A DNA stretch of 62,436 bases. Source: Defluviicoccus sp. Lineage in GTDB: Bacteria; Pseudomonadota; Alphaproteobacteria; MPNO01. Below are positions 6,684 to 58,149 of the stretch, one piece after another. The DNA lies in contig JAPPGP010000003.1 in the NCBI GenBank assembly GCA_028821395.1, positions 1-62,436 of the forward strand, read 5' to 3'. How positions within the stretch are numbered: the first letter of the stretch is position 1; every line of letters starts with the position of its first letter. The notes beneath the pieces were generated by a model. That model was given only the letters and a program-made list of their open reading frames with translations. It was not told the DNA's origin and made no database searches. Both the position numbers and the translations under genes were made by a program.

Positions 6684-7790
6684 ATGACCCTCTACGCAGA
6701 CTCGCAATACCCGGTACGAGAGGACCTCGACGCCGTTCATGCGGGACAGCTGGACCAGCTGGCCGACCCCGGTACCTGGGGTACCGGCGCGCAGCGCCTG
6801 GCGATTGCCAGAGAGGTTCGCCAGGCGTGTTATGACTCAGGCTTGCAGGAAGAGCCGGAAGACACCGGCCCGCTGAGCGATGTCGAGCTGCCGGAGTCGG
6901 TTTGCGCGACGATCCGGAAATTGGCCGTCGCGCCCAAGGACTTCGTCGAGGACTCTTATGAAGAGGCCAGGAATGGCGGTCTTACCGACGAGGAATATGT
7001 CGAGATCGTCGGCATCGTGTCGCGACTGACCGACATGGATGTGTTCGCCCGCGGCATAGGAGTGCCTCTGCGTCCTCTGCCGGCCGCGCGCGGCGGCCGG
7101 CCGTCGCGGGTCCGCCCCCGGGCCACCAAGAAGGAGATGGCCTGGGTTCCGACCGTGCCGAACCTCCCCGAGGGCGGCGAGGAGGCCGCCGAGATCTACG
7201 GCGAAGACTACCGACCCTACATCATCCGCTCGCTCAGCCTGGTGCCGGATGAAATGCGGCGGCATCTCGAGCTGGAAGAAGTGCAATACCTGCCGATGAA
7301 GAATGTTTTCGTCAAAGATTTTCAGCATCATGAGGGGTTCACCCGCGCTCAGGTCGAGCTGATCGCGGGGCGGGTATCCGCTCTCAATGAGTGCTTCTAC
7401 TGAACGGCGGGCCATGCCTGGTTCCTCCGTGAGAGTGGACGCGAGACTGGCCTCAACGTCAATTTGGCGGCGCTGCTCGACCCGGAACAGGACAGCGGTG
7501 TACCCGGCGGCGGGGAGATTCTCGCCTTCGCCGATGCCGTCATCGGATCCGACCGGGCGGCACTGGACCAGGCGCGGCAGAATCTCGCCGACTCGGTAGG
7601 GTCACTGGCGGTACCGGCAGCGGCAGCCATTGCCGCGACCTTCACCAAGAACGATCGCATCGCCAATGCCGTCGGCATCCCCTCCGAGCTGAAAATGTTG
7701 CGGAATTCCAAGGAGATCCGGGCGGAGCTCGGGATAAACGGCTTCCGGTCGTCGGCGAGCACGTTCAAGCACTACCCCGACGAGCGATAG
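6684..7790 (+). CDS. AhpD-like (carboxymuconolactone-decarboxylase fold) selenoprotein candidate, Sec at TGA 7401-7403
   Basis: The frame opens at ATG 6684, meets TGA at 7401-7403, and continues in the same frame to TAG at 7788-7790. Read through, it gives 368 residues with selenocysteine at position 240 inside CFY-U-TAGH. AhpD-fold peroxidases have CxxC followed by three residues and His; here the second Cys is replaced by the TGA codon. Conservation continues across the TGA: ELIAGRVSALNECFY before it, an NVNLAALLDP stretch and C-terminal ELGINGF after it. The paralogue at complement 52763-53869 has the same arrangement and the same total length. Without read-through the product would end just after the first redox Cys. 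AhpD-like selenoproteins with CxxU are known. Expected role: thiol-dependent peroxidase or reductase, probably supplied by the upstream GST operon. No selA, selB, selC or selD gene is in the window. Confidence 0.82.
7421..7440 (+). promoter_or_regulatory. candidate bacterial SECIS hairpin downstream of TGA 7401
   Basis: Bases 7421-7427 (GTTCCTC) pair with 7433-7440 (GAGTGGAC reading) in seven base pairs including one G-U, with a bulged U at 7436. The five-base loop CGTGA begins 24 nt after the TGA and has G in the second position. Bacterial SECIS elements are expected within roughly 16-37 nt of the UGA with a G early in the loop. A competing hairpin nearer the TGA (7404-7430, ACGG...CCGT with an inner GGGCCA/TGGTTC stem) is also possible. 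Confidence 0.5.
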
Positions 7791-7817: not shown

Positions 7818-8396
7818 CTACTTGTCGATATAGCCGAACGTGATCGGGTGCCCCTTTCGTTGTTCTTCCGCGGACCCGGTGTGTTTTCCTGAGTTCCAGC
7901 CGACGGGGCGCAGCACGCGCTCGGCGAAGTCGATCGATTCTTGGTCGGTGACCGTTGCGATGGTGTCGTTCCAGCGGTTCAGGAAGCCGCCGACCGCGAT
8001 CACCGCCAATATCTCGATGATCTGGTCGTTCGAATAGTGCTTCCGCAACTCGACGTAGTTCTCCGGCTCGACGACGTTCGGCGAGATGCCCGCCGCAAAG
8101 GCCAGATCGAGGGCCGCCCGCTCGGCGTCGGAAAATTCCGGAGAGGTCCGATAGCTCCAGAGCGCCTGGATTTTCTCATCCGCGACTCCCAGCTTGTGGA
8201 GATGGTAGGAGCCGTGCGACTGACAATGCAGGCAACCGCGTGCCAGGCTCGCGGCCGTGAAGATCAGCTGTTTGAGCTCCCCATCGATCCCGCGGCCCGG
8301 AAAGACGAGCCTCAAGAGCTCGTTCACCTTCTCCCGAAGCTCGGGCCAATGGTGCATCTCGAGGTTCTGCCGGCCTTCGTATTCTGTCGCTGCCAA
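7818..8396 (-). CDS. carboxymuconolactone decarboxylase / AhpD-family protein (CxxC form)
   Basis: The 192-residue protein carries the standard CMD/AhpD active-site motif CLHCQSHGSYH in its N-terminal half, followed by helices typical of the family (ALWSYRTSPEFSDAERAALDLAFA) and VGGFLNRWNDT. The TTG at 8396 is chosen because GGGAGG lies 6 bases upstream; the frame is open to 8495 but without a better start. It is the Cys version of the redox centre that is CxxU in the neighbouring gene, and the two genes converge. Function is probably alkylhydroperoxidase-like or a related thiol redox reaction. The family also contains true decarboxylases, so the exact role is open. Confidence 0.82.
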   Translation of the reverse strand: MAATEYEGRQNLEMHHWPELREKVNELLRLVFPGRGIDGELKQLIFTAASLARGCLHCQSHGSYHLHKLGVADEKIQALWSYRTSPEFSDAERAALDLAFAAGISPNVVEPENYVELRKHYSNDQIIEILAVIAVGGFLNRWNDTIATVTDQESIDFAERVLRPVGWNSGKHTGSAEEQRKGHPITFGYIDK

Positions 8397-52762: not shown

Positions 52763-53869
52763 TCACCGCGCTCGGGAGAATCCGTCGATGCCGAGCTCCG
52801 CCCTGAGCCCGGCCGTCGCCGCCTCCTTGGCCGGTTCGAGCGGGATCCCCGTGGCGTCCGCGACCCGGTCGAGCGCCGAGTAGTTGGCGACCACGGCCGC
52901 CGCATCGACCAGCGCGGAATCGCCGAGGGCCTCGCGCAGGCGTTCCCTGATCCCGGTCAGCCGGGCCTCGTCCTCGCCCAGCACCGCCTCCGCGAACCCC
53001 GCCAGCAAGCGTCCGTGCGCTACCCCGCCGTCGCCGGGATCGCCCGTGATCGCCTGCAAATTCACCTCGGTCCCGCCGGCGGACGCGCTCGCACGGAGCA
53101 TCTCGGCATGGGTGGTGGTTCAGTAGAAGCACATGTTGATGGCCGAGACCCGGCCCGCGATGAGCTCCATCTGGGCGCGGTCTATCGCGCGGTACCGCCC
53201 CGCGACATCCGGTATCAGCCGTCCGGGGAGGTATTGCGCGTCGACCATGTCGAACAGACCGGCCGCCTCCCGCGGCACCAGGCTCAGCGCGCGCCGGATG
53301 AAGGTCGGGTCGGGCGAGACGTAGACGCCGTCGAGGCAGGCTTCCTCGGCGGTCCGGTCTTCCGGCGCCAGCATGGCAACCCATGCCGGTCCCGCCTTCG
53401 CGCCCGTTGGCCGCGTCCGCGGCGGCTCGCCTGGTTGCGGCGGCGGCAGAGGGTGCGGCGGCACCCCGATCGCGCGGCAGAAGACATCGACCGCGATCGT
53501 CGTCGCCGCGACACCCACCGTCTCGACGAATTCCGTCTCTTCGATGCCGCTTGCCATCGCGCTGTCGAACCAGGCGCGGGTCAGTCGGCCGGGGTCGGTG
53601 GCGATCCGGTGGACCACTTCGACGACATTGCCGGGCAGATCGGTCGCCGAGCGGTGCCATCCGGGCACCCGATAGGGCGACAGCGCGGCCTTGCATTCCG
53701 CGCAATAGGCGCAATCGCGCGCCGCCCGGGTCTCGGCCGCGATGGCGACCCGGCGCGCCGCGTCCAGCCAGGTGCCCGGCGCGGCCAGGCGTCGCCAGGC
53801 GCGAAGGTGGGCGGCGGCCAGGTCGGCCCGGACCGCGATCCCCGCAGACCGATATGAGAGACCGTCCAT
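52763..53869 (-). CDS. AhpD-like (carboxymuconolactone-decarboxylase fold) selenoprotein candidate, Sec at TGA 53122-53120
   Basis: The frame runs from ATG 53869 through an in-frame TGA (53122-53120) to TGA 52765-52763. Read through, it gives 368 residues, identical in length to the paralogue at 6684-7790. The TGA falls in CFY-U-TTTH at position 250; ELIAGRVSAIN precedes it and LRA-S, VNLQAITGDP and C-terminal ELGIDGF follow, all conserved with the other copy. The Sec replaces the second Cys of the AhpD CxxC motif. This copy also has an N-terminal CAYCAEC cluster absent from the other. It is the last gene of a six-gene operon, 14 bases after the luciferase-like monooxygenase. A redox or peroxide-reducing role with that enzyme is an inference. 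Confidence 0.82.
53086..53100 (-). promoter_or_regulatory. candidate bacterial SECIS hairpin downstream of TGA 53122
   Basis: On the minus strand TGCTC (53100-53096) pairs with GAGCG (53090-53086) including one G-U; the loop CGTGC starts 24 nt after the TGA, exactly as in the copy at 7421. Two further pairs (18-19 with 37-38 counted after the TGA) extend the stem. Core CTC-CGTG-x-GAG is shared by both genes, although it also encodes shared LR residues. Confidence 0.5.
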
Positions 53870-53883
53870 CCCGCTGTGCCCGA

Positions 53884-54888
53884 TCAGCCGGCGCGGATCG
53901 CCGGCAGCACGCGCTCGCCGAACAGCTCGACCGTCCCCGCCGGGTCCGAGGCGACGCTCACGGTGAACATAACGCGCTTCAGCCCGGCGTCCCTGGCGGC
54001 GCTGAGCTGCGCCAGGCACTGCTCCGGGGTGCCGTGGATGGCGAAGCGCCCGGCGAGGTAGTCGAACAGCCCGAGCTCGTCGACCAGCTCCGCATCGGCC
54101 TCGCCCGGCCGCGTGCTGTAGCGCCGGCGCAGCTCGCGCACCTTCTCGTGGTACTCCGCCGGCACGCCGCGTTCGTCAAGGTCGTCCGAGGCCAGAATGT
54201 AGCCGCCAGCCATGAAGGCGAGGATCGCGCCCGCCCGGCGCCTCGCGGCCCCGCCGTCCAAGTTGCAGTCGAGGCTTGCGATCTGCCAGGTCTCGACATC
54301 CTCCGCGGCGCGTCCGGCGGCCCGCGCCCCCTCGGCAACGAGGGCTTCGGAGTAAGCCAGGTTCTCCCGCGCGATGCCGAAGTTGACGAACGCGCCGTCG
54401 GCGATGCCGCCCGCCAGCCGGAGGGTCCTCGGGCCCGACCCGGCGAGGAAGACGCGCGGGCCGGTCCGCGCCCAGGGGAGGTGGGAAGCGGCCCCGCCAA
54501 GCGCCGCCGGCTCGCCCGAGGTCAGCGTCTTGATGAAGCGAATCCCGTCGTCCATGTCGCGCAGCCCCGAGCTGGGGAGGCCCAGATTCCGCGTGCCGCT
54601 GTGGCCGGCGCCGAGCCCCAGCACCGTCCTTCCCGGGGCCAGCAGATCGAGCGACGATATCGCCGCGGCGGAGACCGAGGGGTGGCGCGATGACAGGTTG
54701 GTGACGCAGAGCGCGACCCGAGCCCGGCTGGTCTCGCGCGCGACCACCGAGGCCGCGACCCAGGGGTCCATCGCGTTGCCCGGGGTATCGGCGATGCCGA
54801 TCATGTCGTAGCCCCAGCTCTCCGCCGCCCGCGCCATGCGCTCGATCAGCTCGGGCGTGTAGGGCCAGAAGAAGAAGCCGATCTCCAT
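53884..54888 (-). CDS. luciferase-like monooxygenase (LLM) family oxidoreductase
   Basis: The 334-residue TIM-barrel flavin or F420 enzyme begins MEIGFFFWPYTPELIERMAR. ARVALCVTNLSSRHP, SLDLLAPGRTVLGLGAGHSG and FLAGSGPRTLRLAGGIADG are the family cofactor-binding regions. It resembles the F420-dependent branch more than the two-component bacterial luciferases, but cofactor choice is not certain. It starts 11 bases after the D-2-hydroxyacid dehydrogenase stop and is followed by the selenoprotein gene. Confidence 0.88.
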   Translation of the reverse strand: MEIGFFFWPYTPELIERMARAAESWGYDMIGIADTPGNAMDPWVAASVVARETSRARVALCVTNLSSRHPSVSAAAISSLDLLAPGRTVLGLGAGHSGTRNLGLPSSGLRDMDDGIRFIKTLTSGEPAALGGAASHLPWARTGPRVFLAGSGPRTLRLAGGIADGAFVNFGIARENLAYSEALVAEGARAAGRAAEDVETWQIASLDCNLDGGAARRRAGAILAFMAGGYILASDDLDERGVPAEYHEKVRELRRRYSTRPGEADAELVDELGLFDYLAGRFAIHGTPEQCLAQLSAARDAGLKRVMFTVSVASDPAGTVELFGERVLPAIRAG

Positions 54889-54899
54889 CGCAATCTCCG

Positions 54900-55856
54900 T
54901 CAGGCCACCCGGAAGCGGAGCGGCTCGCCGGCAACGAGGCGCCGGCAGTTGTCGAGCGCCACATCGAGGCTGCGCTCGATGGTGTCCATGGTGAGCCAGG
55001 CGACATGCGGGGCCAAGACCGCATTGTCGAGCCCGAGCAGCGGGTTGCCGGGCGCCACCGGCTCGCGGGCAAAGACGTCGAGCCCGGCCGCCGCGAGACG
55101 GCCGCTCGCAAGCGCCACCGCGAGCGCCGCCTCGTCGACCAGGCTGCCGCGTGCCGTGTTGACCAGCACCGCCCCCGGTTTCATGCGGGCGAGCGCGGCG
55201 GCGTCGATCATGCCCACGGTCTCGGCGGTCTCCGGGAGGTGGAGCGAGACGATGTCGGACTCTTCGAGCAGCACCGGCAGAGTTCGCCATTCGGCAAGGC
55301 CTTCCGCCTCTCTTCTTGGGGCGCGCGCGGTATAGAGCAGGCGTGCGCCGAGCGCCTTGAGCACCGGAGCCAGCGCTTGCGGCACCGCGCCGTAGCCGAC
55401 CAGCCCGACGACCCGCCCGCCGATCTCGCCCAGGCAATCCTGCATGGCGCTGTCCAGCTTCCAGCCCGCACCCTCGCGCGTCGCACGATCGAACGCCGAG
55501 AGCCGGCGAAGCGCCGCCAGCATCAGGGCGAGCGTCATCTCCGCGACCGCTCTGGTGTTGGTTCCCGGCATATTGCACACCGGGATGTCGCGGGTACGCG
55601 CGGCATCGAGGTCGATGGTGTTGACCCCGACGCCGATCTTCTGGATCAGCCGCAGCCCGGGCGCGGCCGCGATGTCGGTTGCCGAGAGCGGGCGCAGCAC
55701 GTGCCAGAGCACGTCCGCGTCGGTCATCAACTCCCGGAAGCGCGCATCGTCCGCCGCCGGGCAGACGGAGATGTCGAGCCCGTCGCCCGACGCCTCCGAC
55801 AGCCGGCGGGCGAGGGCCGGGCCGGCGTCGTAATGGAAGATCACCCGCATGGTCAT
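54900..55856 (-). CDS. D-isomer 2-hydroxyacid dehydrogenase family protein
   Basis: The 318-residue NAD(P)-dependent dehydrogenase. Substrate-domain loop QKIGVGVNTIDLDAARTRDI with NMPGTNTRAVAEM, Rossmann loop VGLVGYGAVPQALAPVL (GxGxxP instead of GxGxxG), VNTARGSLVDEAAL with the catalytic Arg region, AGLDVFAREP (Glu) and APHVAWLT (His). All three catalytic residues look present. The start codon ATG at 55856 overlaps the TGA of the enolase-like gene (ATGA), so the two are translationally coupled. Its substrate may be made by that enolase paralogue. Confidence 0.88.
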   Translation of the reverse strand: MTMRVIFHYDAGPALARRLSEASGDGLDISVCPAADDARFRELMTDADVLWHVLRPLSATDIAAAPGLRLIQKIGVGVNTIDLDAARTRDIPVCNMPGTNTRAVAEMTLALMLAALRRLSAFDRATREGAGWKLDSAMQDCLGEIGGRVVGLVGYGAVPQALAPVLKALGARLLYTARAPRREAEGLAEWRTLPVLLEESDIVSLHLPETAETVGMIDAAALARMKPGAVLVNTARGSLVDEAALAVALASGRLAAAGLDVFAREPVAPGNPLLGLDNAVLAPHVAWLTMDTIERSLDVALDNCRRLVAGEPLRFRVA

Positions 55857-57136
55857 CCCCACGGGAATTGCGAGCGCGGCGGCAGCCTTCCGCCCGTCGG
55901 CAGGGTCTCGGCGATCCTGAGCCCTTCGTTCCACTTCGCGGTGCGCTCGCCATGGGCGATCGAGCCGACCTTGAGCTGTCCCACCCCCCAGCCGAGCGCG
56001 AGATGGACCACGGTCACGTCCTCGGTCTCGCCCGAGCGCGCCGACACCACGGCGCCGTAACCCGACGCCCGCGCGGCGTCCAGCGCCGCCCGGCAGGCGC
56101 TCAGCGTGCCCGCCTGGTTGGGCTTGAGCAGAACCGCGTTGCAGGCGCCTATCTCCGCCGCCTCGCGCACGCGGTCCGCGTTGCTGACCAGGGCGTCGTC
56201 GCCCACCACCTGGACACGAGCGCCGAACGCGCTTGTGAAGGCGGCGAGGCCCGCCAGATCGTCCTCGGCCAGCGGGTCCTCGATCGAGACGATGGGAAAA
56301 CGCTCGATCCAGCCGCCGAGCAGGGCGCACATGCCGTCCGAGTCGAGCTTCCGCCCGTCCCGGGCGAGGCGGTAGCGGCCGTCCGCGCCGAACTCGGAAG
56401 CCGCGATGTCGAGGGAGATGCCGATCTCTTCGCCCGGCACCAGGCCGGCGCGTTCGATGGCCCGGACCAGGGTTTCGAGCGCGTGCTCGTTGCCGTCGAA
56501 GACGGGCCACAGCCCGCCCTCGTCGGCGGTTCCGCCTAGCGCGCCCCGTCCGGCCATGATATCGCCCGCCGCGCGGTAGATCTCGGCCGTCCAGTCGAGC
56601 GCCTGCGCGTAGTCCGACGCGCCGGTCGCGATAACCATGAAGTCCTGCACGTCGACCCGCCCGGCGGCATGCGCCCCGCCGCCGAAGATCTGGATCTCGG
56701 GGAGCGGCATCATCGGCGCGGCATCGCCCGCGAGGTGGCGCCACAGCGGCACTCCCTTCGCGTCGGCCGCGGCGTGGGCGGTCGCCATCGACGCGGCGAC
56801 CATAGCGTTGCCGCCGAGCCGCGAGGCGTCCGCCGTGCCGTCGAGCGCCACGAGGCAATCGTCGACCGCCTCCTGGTCGCAGGCGTCGAGCCCGGCAAGC
56901 GCGGCTGCGATCTCGCCGTCGACCGCGGCGATCGCGCGGGTCACGTCGAGTCCGCCGAACGCCTCGCCGCCGTCGCGCAGGTCCACCGCCTCGGCGCTTC
57001 CCCGCGAGGCGCCGGAAGGCGCGATCGCCCGCCCGGGCGCGCCGCCTGCGAGCGCGATCTCCACCTCGACCGTCGGCCGCGCGCGCGAGTCCCAGACCCG
57101 GCGCCCCTTCACCGAGCGGATCGCGGTTGCGGTCAA
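55853..57136 (-). CDS. enolase-family protein with altered catalytic residues
   Basis: The 427-residue protein has family length and domains. Kept: the metal ligands Asp243 (SLDIAASEF), Glu286 (SIEDPL) and Asp313 (VGDDAL), Lys338 (LLKPNQ), Lys389 (GQLKVGS), His156 (GGGAHAAG) and Glu206 (ADEGG). Changed: SGASR for the usual SGAST loop, QDFM (Asp165) for QEFM, and VSARSGE (Ala366) where true enolase has SHRSGE. The lost His normally contacts the phosphate of phosphoglycerate, so this is probably not the glycolytic enzyme. The TTG start at 57136 overlaps the TGA of the kinase gene (TTGA). Enolase paralogues occur in phosphonate biosynthesis (carboxyphosphonoenolpyruvate synthase); whether that applies here is open. 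Confidence 0.85.
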   Translation of the reverse strand: MTATAIRSVKGRRVWDSRARPTVEVEIALAGGAPGRAIAPSGASRGSAEAVDLRDGGEAFGGLDVTRAIAAVDGEIAAALAGLDACDQEAVDDCLVALDGTADASRLGGNAMVAASMATAHAAADAKGVPLWRHLAGDAAPMMPLPEIQIFGGGAHAAGRVDVQDFMVIATGASDYAQALDWTAEIYRAAGDIMAGRGALGGTADEGGLWPVFDGNEHALETLVRAIERAGLVPGEEIGISLDIAASEFGADGRYRLARDGRKLDSDGMCALLGGWIERFPIVSIEDPLAEDDLAGLAAFTSAFGARVQVVGDDALVSNADRVREAAEIGACNAVLLKPNQAGTLSACRAALDAARASGYGAVVSARSGETEDVTVVHLALGWGVGQLKVGSIAHGERTAKWNEGLRIAETLPTGGRLPPRSQFPWG

Positions 57137-58149
57137 GCCCCGAGCTCCGCCGCCCAGGCGGCGCGCACGGTACGAAGACGCGAGACAGGGGATTGGAGCA
57201 GGGCGCGGGCGACGCGGCGCACCCGGTCCTTCTCGGCTTCCTCGGTCACATATTCCACCGGCGACTTGCCGTCGATACGGGCGAGGAACAGCCCCGCCAG
57301 CAAGGGCGCCGCGCGGGCTTCGAGTACCGCGGGGGATTCCCAGTCGACGCCGTCCAGATAGGTCCCGGCGAGAACGTCGAAACAGTCCAGGAAGCCGGGT
57401 GCCGCCTCCGGCGTCCACAGGCTCTTGAGCAGCAGGTGGTTGAGGCAGAAGGCGAGGTCGAAGGCGGGGTCGCCGTACCACGCGCATTCGGCATCGAGGA
57501 ACACCGGCCCTGCCGTGCCTATCAGGATGTTCTTGGGGCTCACGTCGCCATGCACCAAGGCGAGCCGGGTCGCAGCCGTCGTCTCGACGATCCCGGCGAG
57601 CCGGCCGGCAAGGTCCAGATGGGCGCGGGCGGCGGTCTCCAGATAGGGCTCAAGACGGATCGCGTGGAAGATGCCGTCGGAGGCGAAGCGCCGGGCGATG
57701 TCGTCGCGCCCCGCGGTGCCGGCGTGGATGGCGCGGATGGCGGCCGCCACGCGGCGCGCGTCGTCCGGCTCGGCCTCGCCCCGGCGCAGCTTCTCCTTCC
57801 AGAGCGGGAATTCGCCGGGCTCCAGATAGTCCATCGCGATCAGCCCGGCCTGCCTGTCGTGGCCCAGCAGACGCGGCACCGCCTGCGGGACGATCCGCCC
57901 GGCGGTCTCGATCCATGCCGCTTCGAAGGCGTTGCGCTCCACCGGCGCGCGCCAGTCCGAGGCGACCTTGAGCCGGGCGAGCGCGCGCTTGACGCAGACG
58001 GCGCGCCCGCCGATTTCGATCTTCCAGATGTCGGACGACACCCCGCCGGGAAGCGCAGTCGAGCGCAATTGCGCCCCGCAAGGGACGAGGCCGAGCCGCC
58101 CGAGCGCCGTCAGGACCTCCCCGGGCAGGGTCCCGCCTTCGCCCGTCAT
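57133..58149 (-). CDS. APH/choline-kinase-like phosphotransferase
   Basis: The 338-residue protein-kinase-like fold has GGVSSDIWKIEI as glycine-rich loop, the ATP Lys in RAVCVKRAL, the catalytic loop LALVHGDVSPKNILI (HGD-x4-N) and the metal-binding FLDAECAWYGDPAFDLAF (DAE in place of DFG-type D). It phosphorylates a small hydroxylated or amino-substituted molecule. It is linked to the enolase paralogue by a TTGA overlap, so its phosphorylated product is a reasonable candidate for the enolase's substrate. It starts 7 bases after the beta-propeller gene. Confidence 0.9.
   Translation of the reverse strand: MTGEGGTLPGEVLTALGRLGLVPCGAQLRSTALPGGVSSDIWKIEIGGRAVCVKRALARLKVASDWRAPVERNAFEAAWIETAGRIVPQAVPRLLGHDRQAGLIAMDYLEPGEFPLWKEKLRRGEAEPDDARRVAAAIRAIHAGTAGRDDIARRFASDGIFHAIRLEPYLETAARAHLDLAGRLAGIVETTAATRLALVHGDVSPKNILIGTAGPVFLDAECAWYGDPAFDLAFCLNHLLLKSLWTPEAAPGFLDCFDVLAGTYLDGVDWESPAVLEARAAPLLAGLFLARIDGKSPVEYVTEEAEKDRVRRVARALLQSPVSRLRTVRAAWAAELGA

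Follow-up and report, generated by a model that had tools for sequence, protein, structure and literature searches.

Within a 62,436-nt stretch of the Defluviicoccus sp. genome (assembly GCA_028821395.1, contig JAPPGP010000003.1; hereafter the window), a gene with an AhpD-like product is interrupted by an in-frame TGA codon, and the question raised by this locus is whether the codon terminates translation or is read as selenocysteine (Sec). The gene, designated here copy A, forms a single frame of 1107 nt on the minus strand (52763-53869), beginning with ATG at 53869 and ending with a terminal TGA at 52763-52765, and its coding part (52766..53869) specifies 368 residues. The TGA in question occupies codon 250 (53120..53122) in the context MCFY-TGA-TTTHAEM (CFY-U-TTTH). 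An earlier note on this DNA had interpreted copy A, together with a paralogue on the plus strand (copy B, 6684..7790, ATG 6684 to TAG 7788-7790), as AhpD-like selenoproteins with Sec at a homologous codon, and this interpretation is upheld by the conservation of the TGA, by purifying selection, by a hairpin following the codon and by the presence of the Sec machinery. Copy A is very probably a selenoprotein of the NCBIfam family NF041238, judging from the sequence comparisons described below.

Both copies score far above the curated cut-off of NF041238 (464.7 bits for copy A and 371.6 bits for copy B against 175), match the model over its full length and carry the CxxU motif; nothing in either of them excludes membership. 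According to a table in a 2026 review (PMC13188914), NF041238, named AhpD_rel_CFYUT, alkylhydroperoxidase-related (seleno)protein, corresponds to the "hypothetical protein 1" that was described in 2005 for the Sargasso Sea selenoproteome from four Sec-containing sequences with CxxU and no assigned function, with Cys homologues also listed (PMC1088965). Both the family and its status as a selenoprotein were therefore on record, and copy A joins as a further member. What is added to prior knowledge is a set of five copies in one genome, a domain duplication with a Sestrin-like build, and the placement of family genes beside sel genes, none of which was found in the accessible parts of those two published descriptions.

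Conservation of the TGA was examined in several partly overlapping sets of genomes. Among 61 genomes, including the Defluviicoccus genome itself, 28 gave matches at E <= 0.001, some of them weak and lacking the TGA. The loci of strong matches comprised 54 gene rows, 53 of which carry TGA at the site; one (L042) stops short of it and another (L043) contains a further TAA. After removal of eight rows, four duplicates (L021, L032, L049, L050) and four fragments (L041, L042, L043, L074), TGA occupied the Sec site in 46/46 aligned genes. Of 517 named relatives, the 80 best gave 82 matches, all with TGA at the site (82/82); this set comes in part from the same organisms as the others. A single TGA was present in each of the 52 rows above the cut-off that were counted by hand from 27 of 385 genomes sampled from the class, with at most five candidates scored per genome. 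No full-length member with Cys occurred among these 52 rows or the 80 best named relatives, an absence limited to these samples, and the weak matches lacking TGA cover mainly the C-terminal half, with scores that at 66.4 bits or less fall far short of the cut-off. A further set of 398 genomes, sampled as the phylum but with many members of the same class, yielded only the Defluviicoccus genome at E <= 1e-40, and a family search of plasmids gave no match. Of the 517 named relatives, the nearest are bins carrying the label Defluviicoccus sp., among them bin129 from the sponge Aplysina aerophoba, while other relatives come from records titled as groundwater, offshore and deep-cast samples. One copy among the named relatives, in L107 (2671-3753), has the Sec site QCLYUATSH plus a further in-frame TAA and is probably decaying or an assembly error.

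The sequence beyond the TGA is constrained. Neutral evolution in this region had been named in advance as the outcome that would speak against a selenoprotein, and it was not seen: the ratio of nonsynonymous to synonymous substitution rates (dN/dS), computed with a home-made script of the Nei-Gojobori type, was 0.07-0.44 after the TGA for 61 orthologue pairs from five paralogue groups, two pairs with saturated dS being left out. The direct comparison of copy A with copy B, at a dS of about 1, is not informative.

Immediately downstream from the codon lies a hairpin resembling a bacterial selenocysteine insertion sequence (SECIS), at 53084..53102 on the minus strand, with its core at 53086-53100 and the loop CGTGC at 53091-53095. 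It begins 19 nt past the TGA and was traced through 105 sequences, in which the 5-nt loop is mostly CGTGC or CGTGA with its first G invariant (105/105). Bacterial SECIS elements are described as hairpins just past the UGA with a small apical loop containing a G (PMC1088965), and the copy A hairpin has these features. Its seven pairs are 90.9% paired, compared with 30-53% for slid pairings; pair 22-36 is standard throughout (TG 71, TA 29, GC 4, AT 1), the outermost pair, 20-38, is standard in only 56%, and sequences of the B group are mismatched at pair 23-35, where the predicted fold of copy B (7421..7440, plus strand, from this one sequence) has a bulged U. For the four variable pairs, none of 2000 shuffles reached the observed paired fraction, a result that is not to be read as a probability because the sequences are related. 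The codons point in the same direction. The 46 aligned genes share 46 conserved columns whose residues are four- or six-fold degenerate, and of these only Leu258 (CTC in 46/46) and Arg259 (CGT in 46/46) never vary, both of them in the hairpin; counting those 46, CGT makes up 152 of the 1366 Arg codons of the aligned genes. Across the 105 sequences the Leu codon is always CTC, and the codon for Arg259 is CGT in 92% and otherwise CGG (8%).

The Defluviicoccus genome encodes SelA, SelB, SelD and a tRNA-Sec with anticodon tca. In the class sample, selA scored over its cut-off in 27/27 of the family-bearing genomes against 56/385 overall, a co-occurrence with a hypergeometric value of 3e-26 if the genomes are independent, which they are not fully; conversely, the family gene was found only in selA genomes, 27 of the 56. 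The family gene is no more than about 5 kb away from selA in seven of the 27 (G033, G117, G148, G210, G251, G303 and G380), and selA and selB also adjoin it at L144 and L101/L075. The stretches from G210, G303 and G380 carry selA, selB, a gene resembling an Ndh/SelD fusion, and the family gene, and those from G117 and G148 carry a gene for a UGSC protein (above the NF041046 cut-off in G148), a gene weakly matching thioredoxin-like proteins, the family gene, a peroxiredoxin (Prx)-like gene, selD, selA and selB. This Prx-like gene (FYRGHWUPYC, UxxC), whose NCBIfam matches in G148 are below cut-off, is on the same strand as the family gene and stops 10 nt (G117) or 24 nt (G148) short of its first ATG. 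The names selD and Ndh/SelD fusion are based on similarity to the SelD locus of the Defluviicoccus genome (L018, G000:C62) and on reading of the translations; that locus itself resembles the G380 fusion-like gene, with 48% identity over the matched part. What appears as a selenoprotein island, with UGSC, thioredoxin-like, AhpD-related, Prx-like UxxC, selD-like, selA and selB genes, is seen at L171, L174 and L175, the last being partial where the contig ends.

Profile matches to proteins of known structure, a predicted model and fold matches define a C-terminal AhpD-fold domain in copy A (residues 186-364, 52778..53314, minus strand) that contains E235, C247, Y249, U250 and H254, preceded by an N-terminal AhpD-like domain (residues 1-185, 53315..53869, minus strand) that appears to be a degenerate copy of it. 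Alignment of the two halves with hhalign gave a score of 32.5 against 20.0 for the best of 200 column shuffles, and in the predicted model the six main helices of both halves follow in parallel order. These comparisons support a protein composed of two AhpD-fold halves in one chain, with CxxU and a His in the C-terminal half and CxxC without the His in the N-terminal one. The family profile aligns with positions 111-149 of Mycobacterium tuberculosis AhpD (1gu9) without net gap, such that E235, C247, U250 and H254 fall on Glu118, Cys130, Cys133 and His137, with Sec replacing the second Cys of the pair. The proton-relay residues of AhpD-like proteins (Glu, CxxC, Tyr/His, His; roles from PMC3141380, PA0269 carrying Tyr at the position of Y249) are thus complete in copy A, with U for Cys, and E235, C247, Y249, U250 and H254 are invariant in 104/104 rows when U is read as C.

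Similarity to single-domain relatives, namely AhpD of M. tuberculosis and peroxidase-related proteins (TIGR00777, TIGR01926; 1gu9, 6k40, 2prr), extends over the C-terminal half; copy A differs from AhpD in the Sec at Cys133 and in its second, degenerate N-terminal half, and it does not reach the curated cut-off of either model (17.6 bits against 191.95 for TIGR00777). The best solved structural match is human Sestrin2 (5t0n, 5dj4), at identities of 12% and 9%, and with this protein copy A shares two AhpD-like domains per chain, according to profile comparison and predicted models. In Sestrin, catalysis resides in the N-terminal domain (Cys125, Tyr127, His132) and the C-terminal site is replaced by a DDYDY hinge (PMC4674687, PMC11429811), whereas in copy A the intact site, with Sec, sits in the C-terminal domain: helices H231-244 and H248-265 are both present there in the predicted model, with CxYUxxxH, and in place of the N-terminal Cys-x-Tyr-x4-His motif there is C53-A-Y55-C56 without the His (K at residue 60). 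Fused bacterial AhpD pairs (YciW and those of Rokubacteria, Corynebacterium and Comamonas) have been proposed as Sestrin analogues, and the section that treats them describes them with Cys and calls none a selenoprotein (PMC11429811). They share the two AhpD-like domains and, as in those of Corynebacterium and Comamonas, the redox pair of copy B is exclusively C-terminal. As far as the literature was searched, nothing was found in print that ties Sestrin, selenocysteine and AhpD together in this way; the one paper in which all three terms occur is a review on p53.

Copies A and B were put forward earlier as two paralogues with a maintained TGA; both are real and homologous, but the genome holds five copies of the family (A to E), with one TGA in each. 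In a tree of 104 rows, from which the L107 copy with its extra TAA and 22 rows with identical cores were left out, each of the five genus groups falls on one branch with support of 99-100 in the Shimodaira-Hasegawa-like approximate likelihood ratio test (SH-aLRT); the tree came from a quick search, was rooted at the midpoint, and gave warnings on long branches elsewhere. Judged by their sequences, the five paralogues are old and not recent duplicates. A B-type copy from another family of the order (L072, G018) is nested in the B clade of the window genus at 88% identity and reflects either horizontal transfer or contamination of the bin.

Copy B carries its in-frame TGA at 7401-7403 on the plus strand (codon 240, CFY-TGA-TAGH), and it is identical to copy A at 137/361 positions (38%, BLASTP), the two TGAs being homologous by alignment. 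Their equal length of 1107 nt, which the earlier note had counted as evidence for the selenoprotein reading, has been discarded as chance, because N-terminal gaps in copy B are balanced by its longer tail and because lengths vary within the family (337-386 aa among the 46 aligned genes, the two shortest, L031 and L038, being matched only from about residue 31); copy B would measure 1143 nt if started at a GTG further upstream. The N-terminal cluster CAYCAEC, regarded previously as an extra feature of copy A, combines two elements. The CxxC, C53-A-Y-C56 (53702..53713, minus strand), is in register with C247-x-x-U250 and is widespread (94/104 rows); it is lacking in the seven B-group rows, and three others miss one or both Cys. 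It is, as judged from this distribution, ancestral and lost in the B group, and the copy B model is without the short helix that follows C53/C56 in the model of copy A. The third Cys, C59 (53693-53695, minus strand), is special to the A orthologues, being confined to their 5/104 rows.

The five copies have different neighbours. Copy A lies 14 nt behind a gene for an LLM-class (luciferase-like) oxidoreductase (53884..54888, minus strand; Pfam PF00296, E 1.8e-41, with the NCBIfam LLM models shown scoring below their cut-offs), in a co-directional run that continues with a 2-hydroxyacid dehydrogenase, an enolase-like protein and an APH-type phosphotransferase (54900..58149, minus strand). Copy A does end this run, as had been noted for a metabolic operon, but the arrangement is not conserved in orthologous loci, where an opposite-strand gene intervenes in three of four (L079-L081) and a 964-nt gap is present in the other (L078). 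Copy B follows a gene resembling a glutathione S-transferase, which ends 32 nt upstream, and faces a gene for a Cys-type CMD protein (7818-8357, minus strand), convergent with it, whose cluster occurs near the family gene at seven places. Copy C lies behind genes that resemble Rieske dioxygenases, with scores under the equivalog cut-offs, and a gene for thioredoxin reductase (TIGR01292, over the cut-off) is close by; copy D lies behind an EamA-like transporter gene and genes resembling 3-hydroxyisobutyrate dehydrogenase and alanine dehydrogenase, and copy E near dnaK- and dnaJ-like genes; the names around D and E come from reading of translations, and the home-made gene predictor misses genes in contigs of lower GC content. 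The proposal that the copies are probably specialised is plausible in the light of the five well-supported clades and these differing neighbourhoods, several of them catabolic, so that the paralogues may each work with an oxygenase or catabolic pathway of their own.

Our favoured explanation, to which we assign a probability of about 0.7, is that copy A encodes a Sec-containing enzyme of NF041238 with a doubled AhpD fold, which probably carries out Sec-dependent reduction of organic hydroperoxides or thiols. The sequence supports decoding of the UGA as Sec, in a genome with SelA, SelB, SelD and tRNA-Sec and helped by the hairpin right after it. The Sec selenolate would attack an organic hydroperoxide or the oxidised thiol of a partner, a selenenylsulfide would be closed with Cys247, and thioredoxin-type donors would re-reduce the site; in copy A the N-terminal CxxC could possibly serve as an internal dithiol relay, a CxxC that copy B has lost. 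A peroxide or thiol role is consistent with the Prx-like UxxC gene upstream in G117 and G148 and with the Rieske-like and thioredoxin reductase neighbours of copy C.

Several observations weigh against parts of this explanation. No partner gene is common to the family, the top neighbour cluster being found at 13/110 places, duplicates and orthologues included, and for this reason the substrate is a guess; so is the internal relay, which was suggested by the register of the two motifs. Profile-profile comparison gives the N/C duplication a probability of only 45.6%, and dN/dS values within the A group run somewhat higher beyond the TGA (0.18-0.44) than ahead of it (0.15-0.29). Changes on both sides of the hairpin pairs (25 against up to 27) and the number of pair types (10 against up to 11) do not exceed those of slid pairings, so that support for the hairpin comes from its paired fraction and frozen codons, and an Rfam search at the site (52763-53300) gave no match. 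Finally, the genome is a draft of 266 contigs with a contamination estimate of 5.32, in which selA-selB were assigned by binning on a 4.4-kb contig, although the association with selA across 27 genomes is independent of that binning.

Among the other explanations, the simplest takes the TGA as a true stop, either a nonsense allele or the end of a 249-residue product, and a reading by the standard code does indeed end there. We consider this hardly credible, given that the TGA is kept in the members examined, with the downstream constraint, the SECIS-like hairpin, the Sec machinery and the 27/27 co-occurrence with selA; the same evidence, together with the codon freeze, rules out a random nonsense mutation, against which the earlier note had already argued. 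If the Sec is accepted, the protein could act chiefly as an adaptor, an AhpD-type reductase of disulfides or selenenylsulfides that returns a peroxiredoxin or another redox partner to its reduced state and is not a direct peroxidase. M. tuberculosis AhpD is such an adaptor, for AhpC (PMC3141380), and the closely spaced UxxC genes in G117 and G148 would fit, as would the Prx-like frames with UPFC in the Defluviicoccus genome, which are weak matches; yet no peroxiredoxin occurs among the scanned genes adjoining the two window copies, and pairing with a Prx-like gene was seen at only three of the loci examined (L171, L174, L175), and we regard this role as unlikely. The frames concerned, L179 (G000:C11; YRGHW-U-PFC) and L178 (G000:C1; SRSFDW-U-PFC), each with an in-frame TGA, are candidate selenoproteins in their own right.

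A further alternative is that the selenol does different chemistry, on a substrate that is catabolic or halogenated. Reductive dehalogenation, as performed by the AhpD-fold debrominase Bmp8, would be an example, and at least one close relative comes from a marine sponge. In the structure matches Bmp8 ranks with, and not above, ordinary AhpD folds, and relatives come also from the groundwater, offshore and deep-cast records, so that we consider such chemistry quite improbable, and the Sec-dependent reduction of hydroperoxides or thiols remains our preferred explanation.

A broader and tentative proposal, which we think rather doubtful as a whole, extends that explanation: the family would be a prokaryotic Sec counterpart of the Sestrin architecture, in which the dithiol and Sec sites of the fused AhpD folds form one relay, and the genus Defluviicoccus, with at least one sponge-associated member, would maintain five old paralogues, each linked with a separate oxygenase or catabolic pathway, as a main reason for keeping the Sec machinery. 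In most symbiont bins from Aplysina aerophoba SelA and SelB are reported to co-occur, and to be missing from most close references (PMC5649159); the five-copy Sec family provides a concrete candidate explanation for their presence there. For a catalogued family without assigned function, there is now a Sec position (Cys133 of AhpD), a build (a fused AhpD pair) and a set of carriers (selA genomes, in the class sample), and the fused pair, with a thiol site in one half and a selenol site in the other, offers a testable comparison for how the Sestrins divided their two halves.
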